Source: Candidatus Atribacteria bacterium (GTDB lineage Bacteria; Atribacterota; JALVIU01). Taken from it: DNA of 5,136 bases. The notes beneath the pieces are model-generated. The model was not told where the DNA came from. It did no database searches and saw nothing but the letters and a program-made list of their open reading frames with translations. The stretch covers positions 1-5,136 of the forward strand of contig JALVIU010000126.1 in the NCBI GenBank assembly GCA_027028665.1. The letters run 5' to 3'. A program made the translations under genes and the position numbers. Positions 1 through 5,136 of the stretch are shown one piece after another (within the stretch, counting starts at the first letter, position 1; each line of letters starts with the position of its first letter).

Positions 1-765
1 AGTAGGTCTCCATTTGCGTGGTACCTCAGTAACAAATCCCAATCCCCCATACCAAAAGTAATCTTTTATATTCGCAAGACCTATAACTATTCCAAATATT
101 CCTACTATTTTTGAAAACCAGTAGGCAGCCCCTACAAATCGCAATGCAGAGAAGATTCCAAGGCCAAAAAGGAAGTATGATATATATATAGATAAGGTAA
201 ATGAAAGGCCTGATATAAGTACCCTCTTTTTCTCCTCTGTATATATAAGACCACTTAAAAGGATAAGCAACACCGCAATAGCACAAGGATTTATAGAGTC
301 CACCAGGGCTGCCCCAATAACGGTAAGAAGGGTAAGTTTTGTAGAAATACACTTCTTTTTTACAGTTTTTGCAAGAGAAGGGCACCCACATACCTTTGTC
401 TCCAATATTACACCTTCTAATTTTCCTATAACATCATCTGCCCCTGTAAGCCACTTATCATATGTAAAAACCGCGGGGATCCATCTTTTATCTTTTGGTA
501 CATTATATGCATCAAAAAAATCATTTAACAATTTCCTATTTTTTACATTACCATAAATCTCAAATCTATGTATCTCAAGGTTTGGATATTTCTTTTCTAA
601 ACTTTTTATAAAAGGTTCTGCCTTCGCACAACTCTGACACCCTTCTCCATAAAAAAAATATATACACCTCTTCTGTTGAGTATCTCCCCAGGCAAGTCCA
701 CCAAAAATAACAAATAAAAAGAGAAACAATATCCACAAAAAGATACCCAATCTTTTATAAACCAT
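1..765 (-). CDS. Exported thioredoxin-like domain fused to DsbD/CcdA-type membrane domain (3' end outside window)
   Basis: Translating the minus strand from the ATG at 765 gives 255 codons without a stop, running off the left edge. Residues about 7-26 are a hydrophobic signal/anchor. Residues 32-130 are thioredoxin-like: CQSC at 43-46, the cis-Pro loop WIPAVF at 95-100, and a late CGCPS at 126-130. From residue 144 come hydrophobic helices (about 144-172, 183-210, 212-233). The first contains SINPCAIAVL, resembling the conserved Pro-Cys helix of DsbD/CcdA electron-transfer proteins. In that family the membrane part passes cytoplasmic thiol electrons to an extracytoplasmic thioredoxin domain; applying this here is inference. 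The start follows AAGGAGG by 5 nt and lies 22 nt after the stop of the upstream thioredoxin-BMP fusion, so the two are probably co-transcribed. A 121-codon ORF in another frame at 26-391 is a shadow. Domain calls are fairly sure; the full length is unknown. Confidence 0.85.
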   Translation of the reverse strand, partial: MVYKRLGIFLWILFLFLFVIFGGLAWGDTQQKRCIYFFYGEGCQSCAKAEPFIKSLEKKYPNLEIHRFEIYGNVKNRKLLNDFFDAYNVPKDKRWIPAVFTYDKWLTGADDVIGKLEGVILETKVCGCPSLAKTVKKKCISTKLTLLTVIGAALVDSINPCAIAVLLILLSGLIYTEEKKRVLISGLSFTLSIYISYFLFGLGIFSALRFVGAAYWFSKIVGIFGIVIGLANIKDYFWYGGLGFVTEVPRKWRPT

Positions 766-782: not shown

Positions 783-1014
783 AAGTTCTATTTCCCTCCT
801 GGAATAGTTCCTAATACACCTTCTACAAACCAGAACATCTCAAGGAGTTCTTTATCTGTGAGAGTCTCTCCTTTTTTTACCTTTATATTTCCTTTTTGAT
901 CTTTTATAGGACCCTGGAATACCTTGTATGCACCTTTCTTTATCTGATCTTCATAGTATATGACCTTTAGTTTTACACTATCTGGTACCTTATCAGATAT
1001 AGGGGCAAGTTTTA
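783..1014. repeat. 232-bp near-identical direct repeat, copy 1 (3' end of thioredoxin-BMP fusion)
   Basis: This segment matches 4905-5136 base for base at an offset of 4122, except position 887 (A here, G at 5009). The change is the third base of an Asn codon (AAT versus AAC) and is silent. The match covers the last 74 codons of the BMP domain, the TAG stop and 5 nt beyond it. It breaks at 782/4904, exactly where the terminator hairpin begins in the other copy. The far boundary is not visible because copy 2 is cut by the window edge, so the repeat is probably longer. Confidence 0.97.
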
Positions 1015-2179
1015 CTATACCTTTTTCAAGTCCTGGCCAGAGGTCTTCGCTCTTCCATGTACCATCCATTACTGCCTTTGTCATCTCTACATACAGTGGT
1101 CCCCAGTTCCATATTGGGGCTGTGAGGAATGATTTTGGGGCAAATTTTCTCATATCACTATTATAGCCTATGGAGTAGAGCCCATGTTCCTCTGCTGCCT
1201 GGTTAGCAGCTGGAGAATCCTGTCCATGTGCTATGAAATCACAACCTGATTCTATAAGTGATAATGCTGCTTCTTTCTCTGTTGCAGGATCATACCAGTT
1301 ATTTACCCATACTACCTTTACTGTAGCATCTTTGTTAGATATTCTTGCACCAAGGGTAAAGGCATTTACACCTCTTACTACCTCAGGAATGGGGACAGGT
1401 GCTACATATCCTATCTTTCCAGATTTACTCATGGCTCCTGCTATAATACCTGCAAGGAAATCTGCTTGATATATACGTCCAAAATATGTACCTACATTTT
1501 TTGCCCTTTTATATCCTGAACAGTGTTCAAATACAATATCTGGATGCTTTTTTGCAATTTCCTGTACAGGATCCATATAACCAAAGCTTGTTGCATATAT
1601 TACCTTACAACCAAGTGCAATGAGATTTTCCATGCTAGTTATAGCCTCTGCACCCTCAGGCACAGATTCAAGATAGATAGTTTCTATATTAAGTTTCTTC
1701 TCCAGGTACTTTCTTCCTTGATCATGTGCATAGGTCCAACCTGCATCACCTACAGGACCTATATATATGAAGCCTGCTTTGAATGCTTTCTTTGTAGAAG
1801 GGCATCTGCACCAATTTAGTTTAGCTATAACCCCTTCCAGAGACGATGCTATATCCTTATCTCCTGTAAACCAATAATCTCCCACAAAGACAGCAGGAAC
1901 CCACCATCTATCTCTTGGTACATTATATGCCTTTAAGAGATTTATAAGGTGTTCGCGGTTTTTCTCATGTGAGATATCAAATCTATGTATATCAAGTTTT
2001 TCATATTTCTTCTCAAGCCTATCTATAAACGGCTTTATTTTTGCACAATGTTCACATGCAGGACTATAGAAAAAGTAAAGGCATATCTTTTTCTGAGCCT
2101 GGGCAGAAAGGGGTGATAAGAAAAAGAAGATCAATATAAAAGAAAGTAAGAATACCTCAAATATCCTTTTATTTCCCAT
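788..2179 (-). CDS. Exported thioredoxin-like / BMP-type substrate-binding fusion protein
   Basis: The product has 463 residues. Residues 1-28 form a type I signal peptide (hydrophobic core 9-21, likely cleavage after AQA at 26-28); there is no lipobox cysteine. Residues 31-128 are thioredoxin-like: CEHC at 42-45, cis-Pro loop WVPAVF at 93-98, and CRCPS at 124-128. From about 134 to the end is a full BMP/PnrA-type binding domain (PF02608-like), with GPVGDAGWTYAHDQGR at 141-156, EHCSGY at 219-224, NVGTYFGR at 228-235, IGYNSDMRKFAP at 337-348 and a C-terminal WFVEGVLG. BMP proteins are ABC-transporter receptors, several binding purine nucleosides; the ligand here is not shown. BMP receptors normally have only a signal peptide ahead of this domain, so the thioredoxin module is the oddity. 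Start: AAGGAGGT lies 7 nt upstream. The 3' end repeats the right edge of the window, and the thioredoxin half is paralogous to the downstream gene. Confidence 0.92.
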   Translation of the reverse strand: MGNKRIFEVFLLSFILIFFFLSPLSAQAQKKICLYFFYSPACEHCAKIKPFIDRLEKKYEKLDIHRFDISHEKNREHLINLLKAYNVPRDRWWVPAVFVGDYWFTGDKDIASSLEGVIAKLNWCRCPSTKKAFKAGFIYIGPVGDAGWTYAHDQGRKYLEKKLNIETIYLESVPEGAEAITSMENLIALGCKVIYATSFGYMDPVQEIAKKHPDIVFEHCSGYKRAKNVGTYFGRIYQADFLAGIIAGAMSKSGKIGYVAPVPIPEVVRGVNAFTLGARISNKDATVKVVWVNNWYDPATEKEAALSLIESGCDFIAHGQDSPAANQAAEEHGLYSIGYNSDMRKFAPKSFLTAPIWNWGPLYVEMTKAVMDGTWKSEDLWPGLEKGIVKLAPISDKVPDSVKLKVIYYEDQIKKGAYKVFQGPIKDQKGNIKVKKGETLTDKELLEMFWFVEGVLGTIPGGK

Positions 2180-2305: not shown

Positions 2306-3124
2306 TCAGGAAAAATTATAAACAAAAACCATATAATCTCTCTTTTTTGTAAACCCAAACTTCTCATACATATGATATGCCTTATAATTCTTCTGAGATA
2401 CAGAGAGCTGAACAAAAGGTATTTCCCTGTTCTTCATTCTCCTCAGGGATTCATTTAAGAGCAACTTTCCCAATCCCTTTCCCTGATATTTTTTGAGTAT
2501 GAGGATCTCAGATATGGTGTAAACCTCGGAGAAGATATTTACCATAATAAAACCTGCAAACTCCCCCTGGTAGTAGATACTCAATGAAAATTCTGGTATA
2601 AATACACCTTCTCGACCTGTATACAAAAATGTATATAGTCTTTCTAAATCATCTGGTGAATATGCGGCAAACACTACTCTATCATAGTCTGGTATAGCAT
2701 CAAAGCAGGAGTGTATATATTCCTTTAGATTACCCATTAAGAAAGGACCAAATTTTACATAAGAAGGGATAGTGAAAGGGAAAGGAGCAAAATCAAAAAA
2801 GGATAGAATCATTTCACTTCTCTTTATAACATATCCTCCTTTTCTTAATATAAAATCAGCAAAAGGGCTTGTAAAGAGAGAAAAATGCAAAAGCACTTTA
2901 CTATTCAAACCCTTTACGAGCCCTATCACTTCTTCAAATAACTCTTCAAGTTCCTTCTCTGTCAATACTTCAATTACCTTAAAGGTGACAACATGAGATC
3001 TTATAAACTCTCTTAGAAAAACCAACCCATAGACTTTATTCTTATTTTTTACCTCATATACCCTGAGTCCATCTCGAATGGGTATATTAAATTTATCATA
3101 ATCAAAAATTCTTTTAAATTCCAT
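2306..3124 (-). CDS. GNAT family N-acetyltransferase
   Basis: The product has 272 residues, probably cytoplasmic, with no signal peptide or membrane segment. The C-terminal part (about 175-270) is a GNAT domain. EILILKKYQGKGLGKLLL at 206-223 holds the Q-G-x-G-L-G acetyl-CoA pyrophosphate loop, and NYKAYHMYEKFGF at 246-258 is the usual late helix and strand with its Asn and Tyr. The N-terminal half (about 1-115) has alternating strand and helix character but no acetyl-CoA loop. It may be a degenerate first GNAT domain, as in tandem-GNAT proteins; that is inference. The substrate cannot be predicted. The start lies 8 nt after the ade stop, and the bases before it (GTGTAGTAAGATAG) lack a clear Shine-Dalgarno sequence, so translation is probably coupled to ade. 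Confidence 0.85.
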   Translation of the reverse strand: MEFKRIFDYDKFNIPIRDGLRVYEVKNKNKVYGLVFLREFIRSHVVTFKVIEVLTEKELEELFEEVIGLVKGLNSKVLLHFSLFTSPFADFILRKGGYVIKRSEMILSFFDFAPFPFTIPSYVKFGPFLMGNLKEYIHSCFDAIPDYDRVVFAAYSPDDLERLYTFLYTGREGVFIPEFSLSIYYQGEFAGFIMVNIFSEVYTISEILILKKYQGKGLGKLLLNESLRRMKNREIPFVQLSVSQKNYKAYHMYEKFGFTKKRDYMVFVYNFS

Positions 3125-3132
3125 CTATCTTA

Positions 3133-4851
3133 CTACACAAAAAGCTCCACTATCTTATGGTCTCTTACATCTACAATGCCCTGGTCAGTAAGCCGCAAGG
3201 TAGGTATTACTTCAAGCTGAACAAAAGCAAGGGTCATAAATGTATCCTCAAGTTGTGCACCTAAATTCTTGGCAGCCTTTTTGAGGTCTCTTATTTTTTC
3301 TGCCACCCATTCTACCTTTTTATCTGACATAAGTCCCCCTATAGGAAGGGGAAGTTCCTCTATTACACGACCATCCAGCACGACCACAAGCCCACCCTTA
3401 AGTTCTATAACACGATTCAGTGCTGTCACTATATCATGGTCATTTGTCCCTATACCAAATAGGTTATGTGCATCATGTCCAACAGATGTAGCAACTGCAC
3501 CCCTCTTAAGCCCTACACCTGTTATAAAACCTATCCCCAATTTTTTCTCCTCTGTGTATCTATTTACAACTACACCTTTGAGCATATCCCTATCCACATC
3601 AGATTTAATTTCATTACCCGTTACATCAAATATAATCTCATCTGTGAGAAGGTCTCCATCTATCACCTTTATTGCCCTTATTTTATTCCCTTTTCTCATT
3701 ACCTTTATATCATCCACTGTAACCTTTGGGCACCTAAAGGAATTATACACCTCTTCAACAAAATAGGGTTCACCTACTACATTTGTAATGAGCTTACCCT
3801 CTTTGGCAACAATCCTTGCATCCTTCATAACCATCTTTGGATAAAAATCCTCAAGGGAATCAGTGATCACCATATCTGCTTTGTAGCCTGGTGATATTGC
3901 GCCCATACTTCGAAGCCCATAATGTCTTGCTGTATTTATGGTTGCCATCTTTATAGCAATAACAGGGTCTATACCCTTTTTGATGGCCTTTCGTACTATA
4001 TAATCTATATGACCTTCTGTAAGAATATCTCCCGGGTGTTTATCATCTGTACAAAAGGAAAGATGTGGATATGTATATTCATTTATAAGAGGCAATAGGG
4101 CCTCCATATTACGTGCACTGGATCCTTCCCTTATAAGTACCTGCATACCTCTGGCAAGCTTCTCTTTTGCCTCATCCAGAAATGAAGATTCATGATCTGA
4201 GCGAATAAAGGCAGATATATATGCATTTAGAGGTTTTCCTGTAAGGCCTGGAGAATGTCCATCTATCTTTTTATATTTATGTCTTATAAGTTCTATCTTG
4301 GTAAGTAAATCCCTATCCCCATTTATTACTCCAGGAAAATTCATTACCTCTCCCAGACCAAGTACCCTTGGGTGTTTTTCTACAAAACCTATCATATCCA
4401 TTACATCTACCACTGCACCTGATGTGGAAAGATCTGTGGCAGGTACACAGGATGGGAGCATCATATATATATTAAGGGGAATACCTTCTGTATATCTTAA
4501 CATATACTCTACACCCTTAAGGCCTGCAACATTTGCAATTTCATGGGGATCTGCAATAACAGTGGTAGTACCTCTGGTAAGTACAGCACGGGCAAACTCC
4601 ACAGGGTCTACCATGGCACTCTCTATATGAAGATGTGCATCTATCAGACCTGGTAGTACATACGCCCCTTGTAAATCAAGCACCTCTTTTCCTTCTGTAT
4701 AATCCCCTATTCCTGCAATTCTCTTTCTATATATAGCAATATTGGTATCTTCTATCTCTCCGCTGAATACATTGACAAGTTTTATATTTTTTATAAGTAA
4801 ATCTGCAGGTACATCACCTCTTGCTACAGGTAATATATCTATAATATTCAT
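3133..4851 (-). CDS. ade: Adenine deaminase
   Basis: The product has 572 residues, the usual length for bacterial adenine deaminase of the amidohydrolase superfamily (adenine to hypoxanthine plus ammonia, EC 3.5.4.2), which is cytoplasmic. Residues 67-80 contain PGLIDAHLHIESAM with metal-binding His73 and His75. DPHEIANV follows at 101-108, GEVMNFPGV at 167-175, GHSPGLTG at 198-205, and FCTDDKHPGD at 266-275 with the late acidic residues. The adenine-deaminase-specific C-terminal domain is present (GHDAHNLFGIGTND at 458-471, PLPIGGLMS at 501-509). No expected motif is missing. Start: AAGGAGG lies 5 nt before the ATG. Only about 20 nt separate the start from the upstream terminator, so expression probably depends on read-through or on a promoter overlapping the hairpin. 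A BMP receptor gene upstream fits purine uptake followed by salvage. The acetyltransferase gene follows after 8 nt. Confidence 0.96.
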   Translation of the reverse strand: MNIIDILPVARGDVPADLLIKNIKLVNVFSGEIEDTNIAIYRKRIAGIGDYTEGKEVLDLQGAYVLPGLIDAHLHIESAMVDPVEFARAVLTRGTTTVIADPHEIANVAGLKGVEYMLRYTEGIPLNIYMMLPSCVPATDLSTSGAVVDVMDMIGFVEKHPRVLGLGEVMNFPGVINGDRDLLTKIELIRHKYKKIDGHSPGLTGKPLNAYISAFIRSDHESSFLDEAKEKLARGMQVLIREGSSARNMEALLPLINEYTYPHLSFCTDDKHPGDILTEGHIDYIVRKAIKKGIDPVIAIKMATINTARHYGLRSMGAISPGYKADMVITDSLEDFYPKMVMKDARIVAKEGKLITNVVGEPYFVEEVYNSFRCPKVTVDDIKVMRKGNKIRAIKVIDGDLLTDEIIFDVTGNEIKSDVDRDMLKGVVVNRYTEEKKLGIGFITGVGLKRGAVATSVGHDAHNLFGIGTNDHDIVTALNRVIELKGGLVVVLDGRVIEELPLPIGGLMSDKKVEWVAEKIRDLKKAAKNLGAQLEDTFMTLAFVQLEVIPTLRLTDQGIVDVRDHKIVELFV

Positions 4852-4874: not shown

Positions 4875-4904
4875 AAAAAAAGACCGCACTCAGGCGGTCT
4901 TTTT
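4875..4904 (-). terminator. Intrinsic terminator after the upstream BMP gene
   Basis: A perfect 11-bp stem pairs 4894-4904 with 4877-4887 around a 6-nt loop (4888-4893). The core GACCGC/GCGGTC is GC-rich. On the minus strand it is followed by a run of seven T (4881-4875). It begins 5 nt after the TAG stop of the BMP gene. The A-tract on the other side also gives it a plausible T-tract on the plus strand, but no plus-strand gene is seen here. The hairpin is absent after the second BMP 3' end at 788. Confidence 0.92.
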
Positions 4905-5136
4905 AAGTTCTATTTCCCTCCTGGAATAGTTCCTAATACACCTTCTACAAACCAGAACATCTCAAGGAGTTCTTTATCTGTGAGAGTCTCTCCTTTTTTT
5001 ACCTTTATGTTTCCTTTTTGATCTTTTATAGGACCCTGGAATACCTTGTATGCACCTTTCTTTATCTGATCTTCATAGTATATGACCTTTAGTTTTACAC
5101 TATCTGGTACCTTATCAGATATAGGGGCAAGTTTTA
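4905..5136. repeat. 232-bp near-identical direct repeat, copy 2 (3' end of upstream BMP gene)
   Basis: Partner of 783-1014, with one silent difference at 5009. This copy retains its terminator immediately outside the repeat, so it looks like the original BMP locus and the other looks like the derived one. That polarity is an inference. The repeat is cut by the window edge. Confidence 0.97.
4910..5136 (-). CDS. BMP-type substrate-binding protein, C-terminal 74 residues (5' end outside window)
   Basis: An open frame enters from the right edge and ends at TAG (4910-4912). Its 74 residues are identical to residues 390-463 of the thioredoxin-BMP fusion, including the family's C-terminal pattern GPIKDQKGNIKV and WFVEGVLG. 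It is therefore the end of a second BMP/PnrA-like receptor gene, a periplasmic ligand-binding component of an ABC transporter. Whether it has an ordinary signal peptide or also a thioredoxin domain cannot be seen. It has its own intrinsic terminator and lies just upstream of ade, which suits a purine uptake and salvage unit. Transporter ATPase and permease genes, if present, would lie beyond the right edge. Confidence 0.9.
   Translation of the reverse strand, partial: KLAPISDKVPDSVKLKVIYYEDQIKKGAYKVFQGPIKDQKGNIKVKKGETLTDKELLEMFWFVEGVLGTIPGGK

Follow-up and report, generated by a model that had tools for sequence, protein, structure and literature searches.

An unusual fusion of a thioredoxin domain to a BMP-type receptor in one draft bacterial genome

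A single gene in the stretch of DNA analysed here (the window, 5,136 bp in full) joins an export signal and a thioredoxin domain to a complete BMP-type receptor. Both halves belong to known families, and what is new is their combination. The data give good support to an unusual domain fusion in one draft genome, set in a genomic context that is partly incomplete. Our preferred reading, which we consider probable, is that of a genuine, lineage-limited gene fusion that arose via local recombination and whose product serves chiefly to capture the ligand for an ABC importer of purines.

Architecture of the fusion gene and its surroundings

The fusion gene opens with an ATG closely preceded by the ribosome-binding site AAGGAGG, and its 463 codons contain no internal stop, frameshift or N run (Table 1). 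The original prediction, made from the letters of the DNA, placed a signal peptide, a CEHC thioredoxin domain with its cis-Pro and a full BMP domain in one frame, and the open reading frame, Pfam profiles and AlphaFold2 models compared by Foldseek confirmed this arrangement. The Pfam Bmp profile (PF02608) matches residues 134–413 (E 2e-68; score 231 bits, cut-off 24.1; positions 3–286 of the 301 in the profile), and the Pfam Thioredoxin profile (PF00085) matches residues 29–74 with 23.5 bits, which is exactly at its gathering cut-off. For residues 29–133 AlphaFold2 returned a confident thioredoxin fold (mean pLDDT 90.5) whose best Foldseek matches in the PDB are all thioredoxins; as judged from sequence and model, the N-terminal half of the protein combines the fold, the CxxC and the cis-Pro of this family. 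The BMP fold is modelled less confidently than the thioredoxin part. Its best Foldseek matches are AtzT (6PI5) and 3S99, and the domain also matches these two proteins by sequence with E values of about 1e-101. Structure prediction thus bore out both folds, while the placement of the two domains relative to each other is of low confidence in the joint model (pTM 0.56).

BMP proteins usually consist of an export signal followed at once by one receptor domain, though the domain family does not require this arrangement, and here a thioredoxin domain occupies residues 29–133 instead. The predicted join at residues 128–134 proved to be correctly placed. CcdA-type membrane helices, which are present in the protein encoded at 1–765, are absent from the fusion, where the helix of the signal peptide is followed by soluble domains. 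The original prediction saw this architecture and overlooked four features of the DNA around and within it: a thioredoxin paralogue downstream, a 232-bp repeat, a contig break inside that repeat, and the second cysteine pair at residues 124 and 126.

Table 1. Features of the window, with the basis of each assignment
Feature	Position	Strand	Basis or remark
Fusion gene: signal peptide, thioredoxin domain and BMP receptor, 463 aa	788..2179	-	Uninterrupted ORF
Signal peptide (Sec-type), residues 1–28, MGNKRIFEVFLLSFILIFFFLSPLSAQA, no lipobox	2096..2179	-	Sequence reading; helix 4–20 in model
Thioredoxin-fold domain, residues 29–122	1814..2095	-	Profile and predicted fold
CEHC active-site motif, residues 42–45	2045..2056	-	Aligns with CQSC of the neighbouring Trx-CcdA protein
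cis-Pro, Pro95 (WWVPAVF)	1895..1897	-	Alignment with Trx-CcdA proteins
Second CxC motif (CRC), residues 124–126	1802..1810	-	CGC here in the neighbouring Trx-CcdA protein
Domain junction, residues 128–134	1778..1798	-	Trx-CcdA homology ends, mature BMP homology starts
BMP (PF02608) purine-type receptor domain, residues 134–463	791..1780	-	Profile, sequence, fold
Direct repeat copy 1: the receptor's final 74 codons with stop codon and 5 nt downstream	783..1014		Recurs at 4905–5136
Direct repeat copy 2: 3' end of second BMP gene, 5' part beyond contig end	4905..5136
BMP receptor gene, 3' end	4910-5136	-	Runs open into contig end
Intrinsic terminator	4877..4904	-	Directly behind BMP copy 2; missing behind fusion gene
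Adenine deaminase	3133..4851	-	TIGR01178, over equivalog cut-off; purine context
GNAT-family acetyltransferase	2306..3124	-	Between adenine deaminase and fusion gene
Thioredoxin and CcdA-like membrane protein (Trx-CcdA)	1..765	-	Truncated by contig end; thioredoxin domain paralogous to that of the fusion

All genes lie on the minus strand and, in the sense of transcription, follow one another as BMP 3' end, terminator, adenine deaminase, GNAT acetyltransferase, fusion gene and Trx-CcdA gene, the last of which begins 22 nt downstream of the fusion gene. The window is the entire contig C126 (5136 bp) of a draft genome of 1.79 Mb in 413 contigs. Promoter-like sites within it occur at chance level only, and no gene for an ABC ATPase or permease was found on the contig, whose 5.1 kb are truncated at either end; a search for an overlap with its left end found none. 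The GNAT acetyltransferase carries about 150 additional N-terminal residues to which no Pfam family corresponds.

Predicted role of the receptor half

AtzT binds guanine and adenine through Ser97, Phe98, Glu165, Asn218 and Asn220, with the base sandwiched between Tyr45 and Trp194 (PMC6834077). The equivalent residues in the fusion are S198, F199, E266, G319 and D321, with W148 and W295 as the sandwich, so that the AtzT-type purine pocket is largely kept and deviates at G319. D321 is as in 3S99, a structure deposited with adenine, and the W and the D are also carried by 3S99 and by an unfused paralogue that the same genome encodes on contig C183. At the position of G319, AtzT has Asn218, and 3S99 and the C183 paralogue have His; given this replacement, the ligand preference of the fusion may be shifted.

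The C183 paralogue has an ordinary signal peptide and no thioredoxin domain. Its gene stands in a row (L082, 817–4555) composed of a molybdopterin-dehydrogenase FAD subunit, a dihydropyrimidinase-like amidohydrolase, the BMP receptor and an ABC ATPase, apparently a group for purine and pyrimidine breakdown and uptake. Permease genes of an ABC importer lie next to the receptor gene in two relatives, one of which has an ATPase gene there as well. Because of the pocket residues, the adenine deaminase on the contig and the membership of the paralogue in a purine/pyrimidine group, purine-base receptor is the best-supported role that sequence comparison suggests for the fusion. The main task of its product would then be to capture ligand for an ABC importer of purines, most likely adenine, since an adenine deaminase gene lies nearby.

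Origin of the fusion and competing explanations

Each half of the fusion has a recognizable relative within the genome. Over 131 residues, up to a CPSxxK motif, the thioredoxin half shares 47% identity with the Trx-CcdA protein encoded next to it; within the thioredoxin domains proper, which are diverged paralogues, the figure is 52–54%. Homologues of this domain in other genomes are placed ahead of CcdA-like membrane domains; one of them (L035, 713–2254) has two successive thioredoxin domains in that position. The receptor half is 69% identical, after the junction, to the mature part of the C183 paralogue. When each half is compared with its paralogue, the differences are concentrated at third codon positions (42/23/60% and 25/15/50% for positions 1/2/3), which indicates that selection has acted on the protein encoded by each half ever since that half was duplicated. 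The junction preserves the frame and connects the conserved end of a thioredoxin domain to the first residue of a mature BMP domain; by a rough estimate, random joining would produce so exact an in-frame junction with a probability of about 3e-4. The 3' boundary is likewise clean, with the stop codon soon followed by AGGAGG, the Shine-Dalgarno sequence of the Trx-CcdA gene.

The 3' end of the receptor is repeated at the far end of the window. The two copies of this 232-bp direct repeat are identical at 231 of 232 positions, and the sole difference (887/5009) is silent. Similarity starts 5 nt past the stop codon and continues to the contig end; behind this boundary lies a terminator at copy 2 and the Shine-Dalgarno sequence of the Trx-CcdA gene at copy 1. 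The contig stops exactly 127 nt after the single difference, which fits a de Bruijn assembly with k=127 (a value inferred from this distance) that halted at an exact repeat. The 5' start of the second BMP gene was found on no other contig of the draft genome, and this gene may be an ordinary donor or may itself be fused.

These features suggest the following order of events. The region encoding the mature domain of a purine-base-binding BMP protein would have been copied without the signal peptide but with the stop codon and 5 nt beyond. This copy would have been linked, with the frame preserved, to the tail of a thioredoxin domain that was itself a duplicate, related to the neighbouring Trx-CcdA gene. 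The signal peptide of the thioredoxin gene would export the product as a soluble extracytoplasmic protein. The thioredoxin arm, with its active site kept, would most plausibly be held reduced by the Trx-CcdA protein encoded next downstream and presumably co-transcribed with it; the arm may reduce disulfides at the place where it is docked, or it may merely be tolerated. The fusion is probably young.

We considered whether the fusion is an assembly artefact, with the start of a thioredoxin gene and a BMP gene that are really separate having been linked via repeated BMP sequence. In favour of this, the window makes up a whole short contig (5.1 kb) in a draft of 413 contigs, its right end repeats the 3' end of the fusion at 231 of 232 positions and breaks off 127 nt after the difference, and no part of the genome was found to carry the 5' end of the second copy; a contig that ends inside a near-identical receptor copy marks a region where short-read assemblies err. 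Even an assembler that left the repeat along the wrong path, however, would have had to draw on reads running from thioredoxin into BMP sequence, the junction itself being unique. Whichever identity the second copy has, the junction must exist in the reads unless these are chimeric, and chimeric reads are argued against by a join that is in frame and exact at both domain boundaries; nor does the frame contain an N run, stop or frameshift. We regard the artefact as unlikely. The same near-identity of the receptor 3' end to the second copy implies that the BMP half is young or recently converted, and the fusion is absent from every other genome searched. Both facts speak for an accidental recent fusion in which the thioredoxin part is only a new leader and arm without receptor function, and which may be decaying or undergoing gene conversion with the second BMP copy. 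Against this, the thioredoxin half keeps its catalytic and structural residues and has changed mostly at third positions, although that bias may predate the fusion, and an accident of this kind seems to us improbable to a similar degree.

The original prediction suggested that the product could be a redox-active or redox-gated receptor, its thiol pair perhaps working on bound ligand or on cysteines of the receptor, or serving only as a tether to redox partners. In such a receptor, the action of the CEHC pair would switch uptake. The CEHC motif, the cis-Pro and the second CxC are all intact, and a likely electron donor, the Trx-CcdA protein, is encoded only 22 nt away. CcdA/DsbD proteins have an established role in supplying electrons, and by analogy the CcdA part of the neighbour is a plausible electron source for the thioredoxin half of the fusion. 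The proposal nonetheless went unsupported, as nothing shows the thiol pair acting on ligand or receptor. The cysteines named as its targets (C191, C220 and C313) have counterparts in the unfused C183 paralogue (C86, C115 and C208) and so did not evolve in response to the fusion; none of the receptor cysteines seen is specific to the fusion, the predicted ligands are purine bases, which are thiol-free, and the low-confidence joint model gives no domain placement. Redox gating is, in our judgement, very unlikely. A redox-coupled purine receptor, whose own thioredoxin would be recharged by the adjacent CcdA and would link purine uptake to extracytoplasmic thiol chemistry, we hold to be more improbable still.

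Distribution and comparison with known systems

The fusion is known from one draft genome, and the relatives with which it was compared share its phylum, none being closer. The original prediction knew of no description of this architecture and proposed a search for other PF02608 proteins fused to thioredoxin; that search has now been run, and the architecture was found nowhere else in the genomes, plasmids and literature covered, with no fused homologue in about 1,160 other genomes or 72,556 plasmids. Among 60 other genomes, of which 49 belong to the phylum of the fusion's host, no match covers both domains, and BMP matches start at about residue 118–148 of the query or later. In the phylum relatives inspected, the receptor is preceded by a signal peptide only, and thioredoxin and BMP are always encoded by separate genes. 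No fused homologue was found in 17 genomes of another phylum. Among the matches listed for 291 genomes of a further phylum, and for about 790 genomes (about 395 each) from the phyla of two Trx-CcdA matches, none extends across both domains, at thresholds that would miss a very distant fusion. No plasmid record in PLSDB covers 80% of the query, and a scan of genome contigs with the thioredoxin alignment returned Trx-CcdA proteins only. A 528-aa frame at L023 was examined as a second fusion and rejected, being an ordinary BMP gene with an open frame upstream. Viral contigs yielded standalone BMP genes only and no thioredoxin match. The BMP genes at L063 and L065 (2390–3541), on contigs classed as viral in IMG/VR, are of the AtzT type and about 42% identical to the receptor of the fusion; they are possibly auxiliary genes or host contamination. 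The literature search found no paper that pairs PF02608 with thioredoxin and nothing relevant on a thioredoxin–BMP fusion.

If the fusion is real, it presents a domain combination found in no genome, plasmid or paper searched, and one caught near its origin, with the parent Trx-CcdA gene adjoining and a near-identical BMP 3' end 4 kb away. It would be a small natural example of the birth of a gene fusion, and would offer a way to learn whether the redox chemistry of the periplasm can be coupled to a receptor for substrates. Otherwise, what remains is a single unusual gene in a single draft genome.

The cyclohexadienyl dehydratase domain has a substrate-binding-protein fold. Its exported fusions with chorismate mutase are described as extremely rare and bifunctional (PMC10520331). 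Both parts of those proteins are enzymes of one pathway, whereas the thioredoxin and BMP parts have no known shared pathway. AtzT (6PI5/6PI6/6PII) and the Brucella BMP lipoprotein 3S99 share with the receptor half its fold and length (42–47% identity in the fold match), the aromatic sandwich and most base-contacting residues, but consist of a single domain behind the export signal, without the thioredoxin domain that precedes the receptor in the fusion. The C183 receptor, with the same three cysteines, differs in its signal peptide, its lack of a thioredoxin domain and its gene group. The Trx-CcdA proteins, including the neighbour at 1–765 and those of Jingweiarchaeum (L046) and Geomonas (L047), possess a thioredoxin domain with CxxC and cis-Pro like that of the fusion, and the second cysteine pair near the end of this domain is common to the fusion and its neighbouring paralogue and is found in part in the Jingweiarchaeum protein. 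In all of these proteins the thioredoxin domain leads into CcdA-like membrane helices, whereas in the fusion it leads into a BMP receptor.
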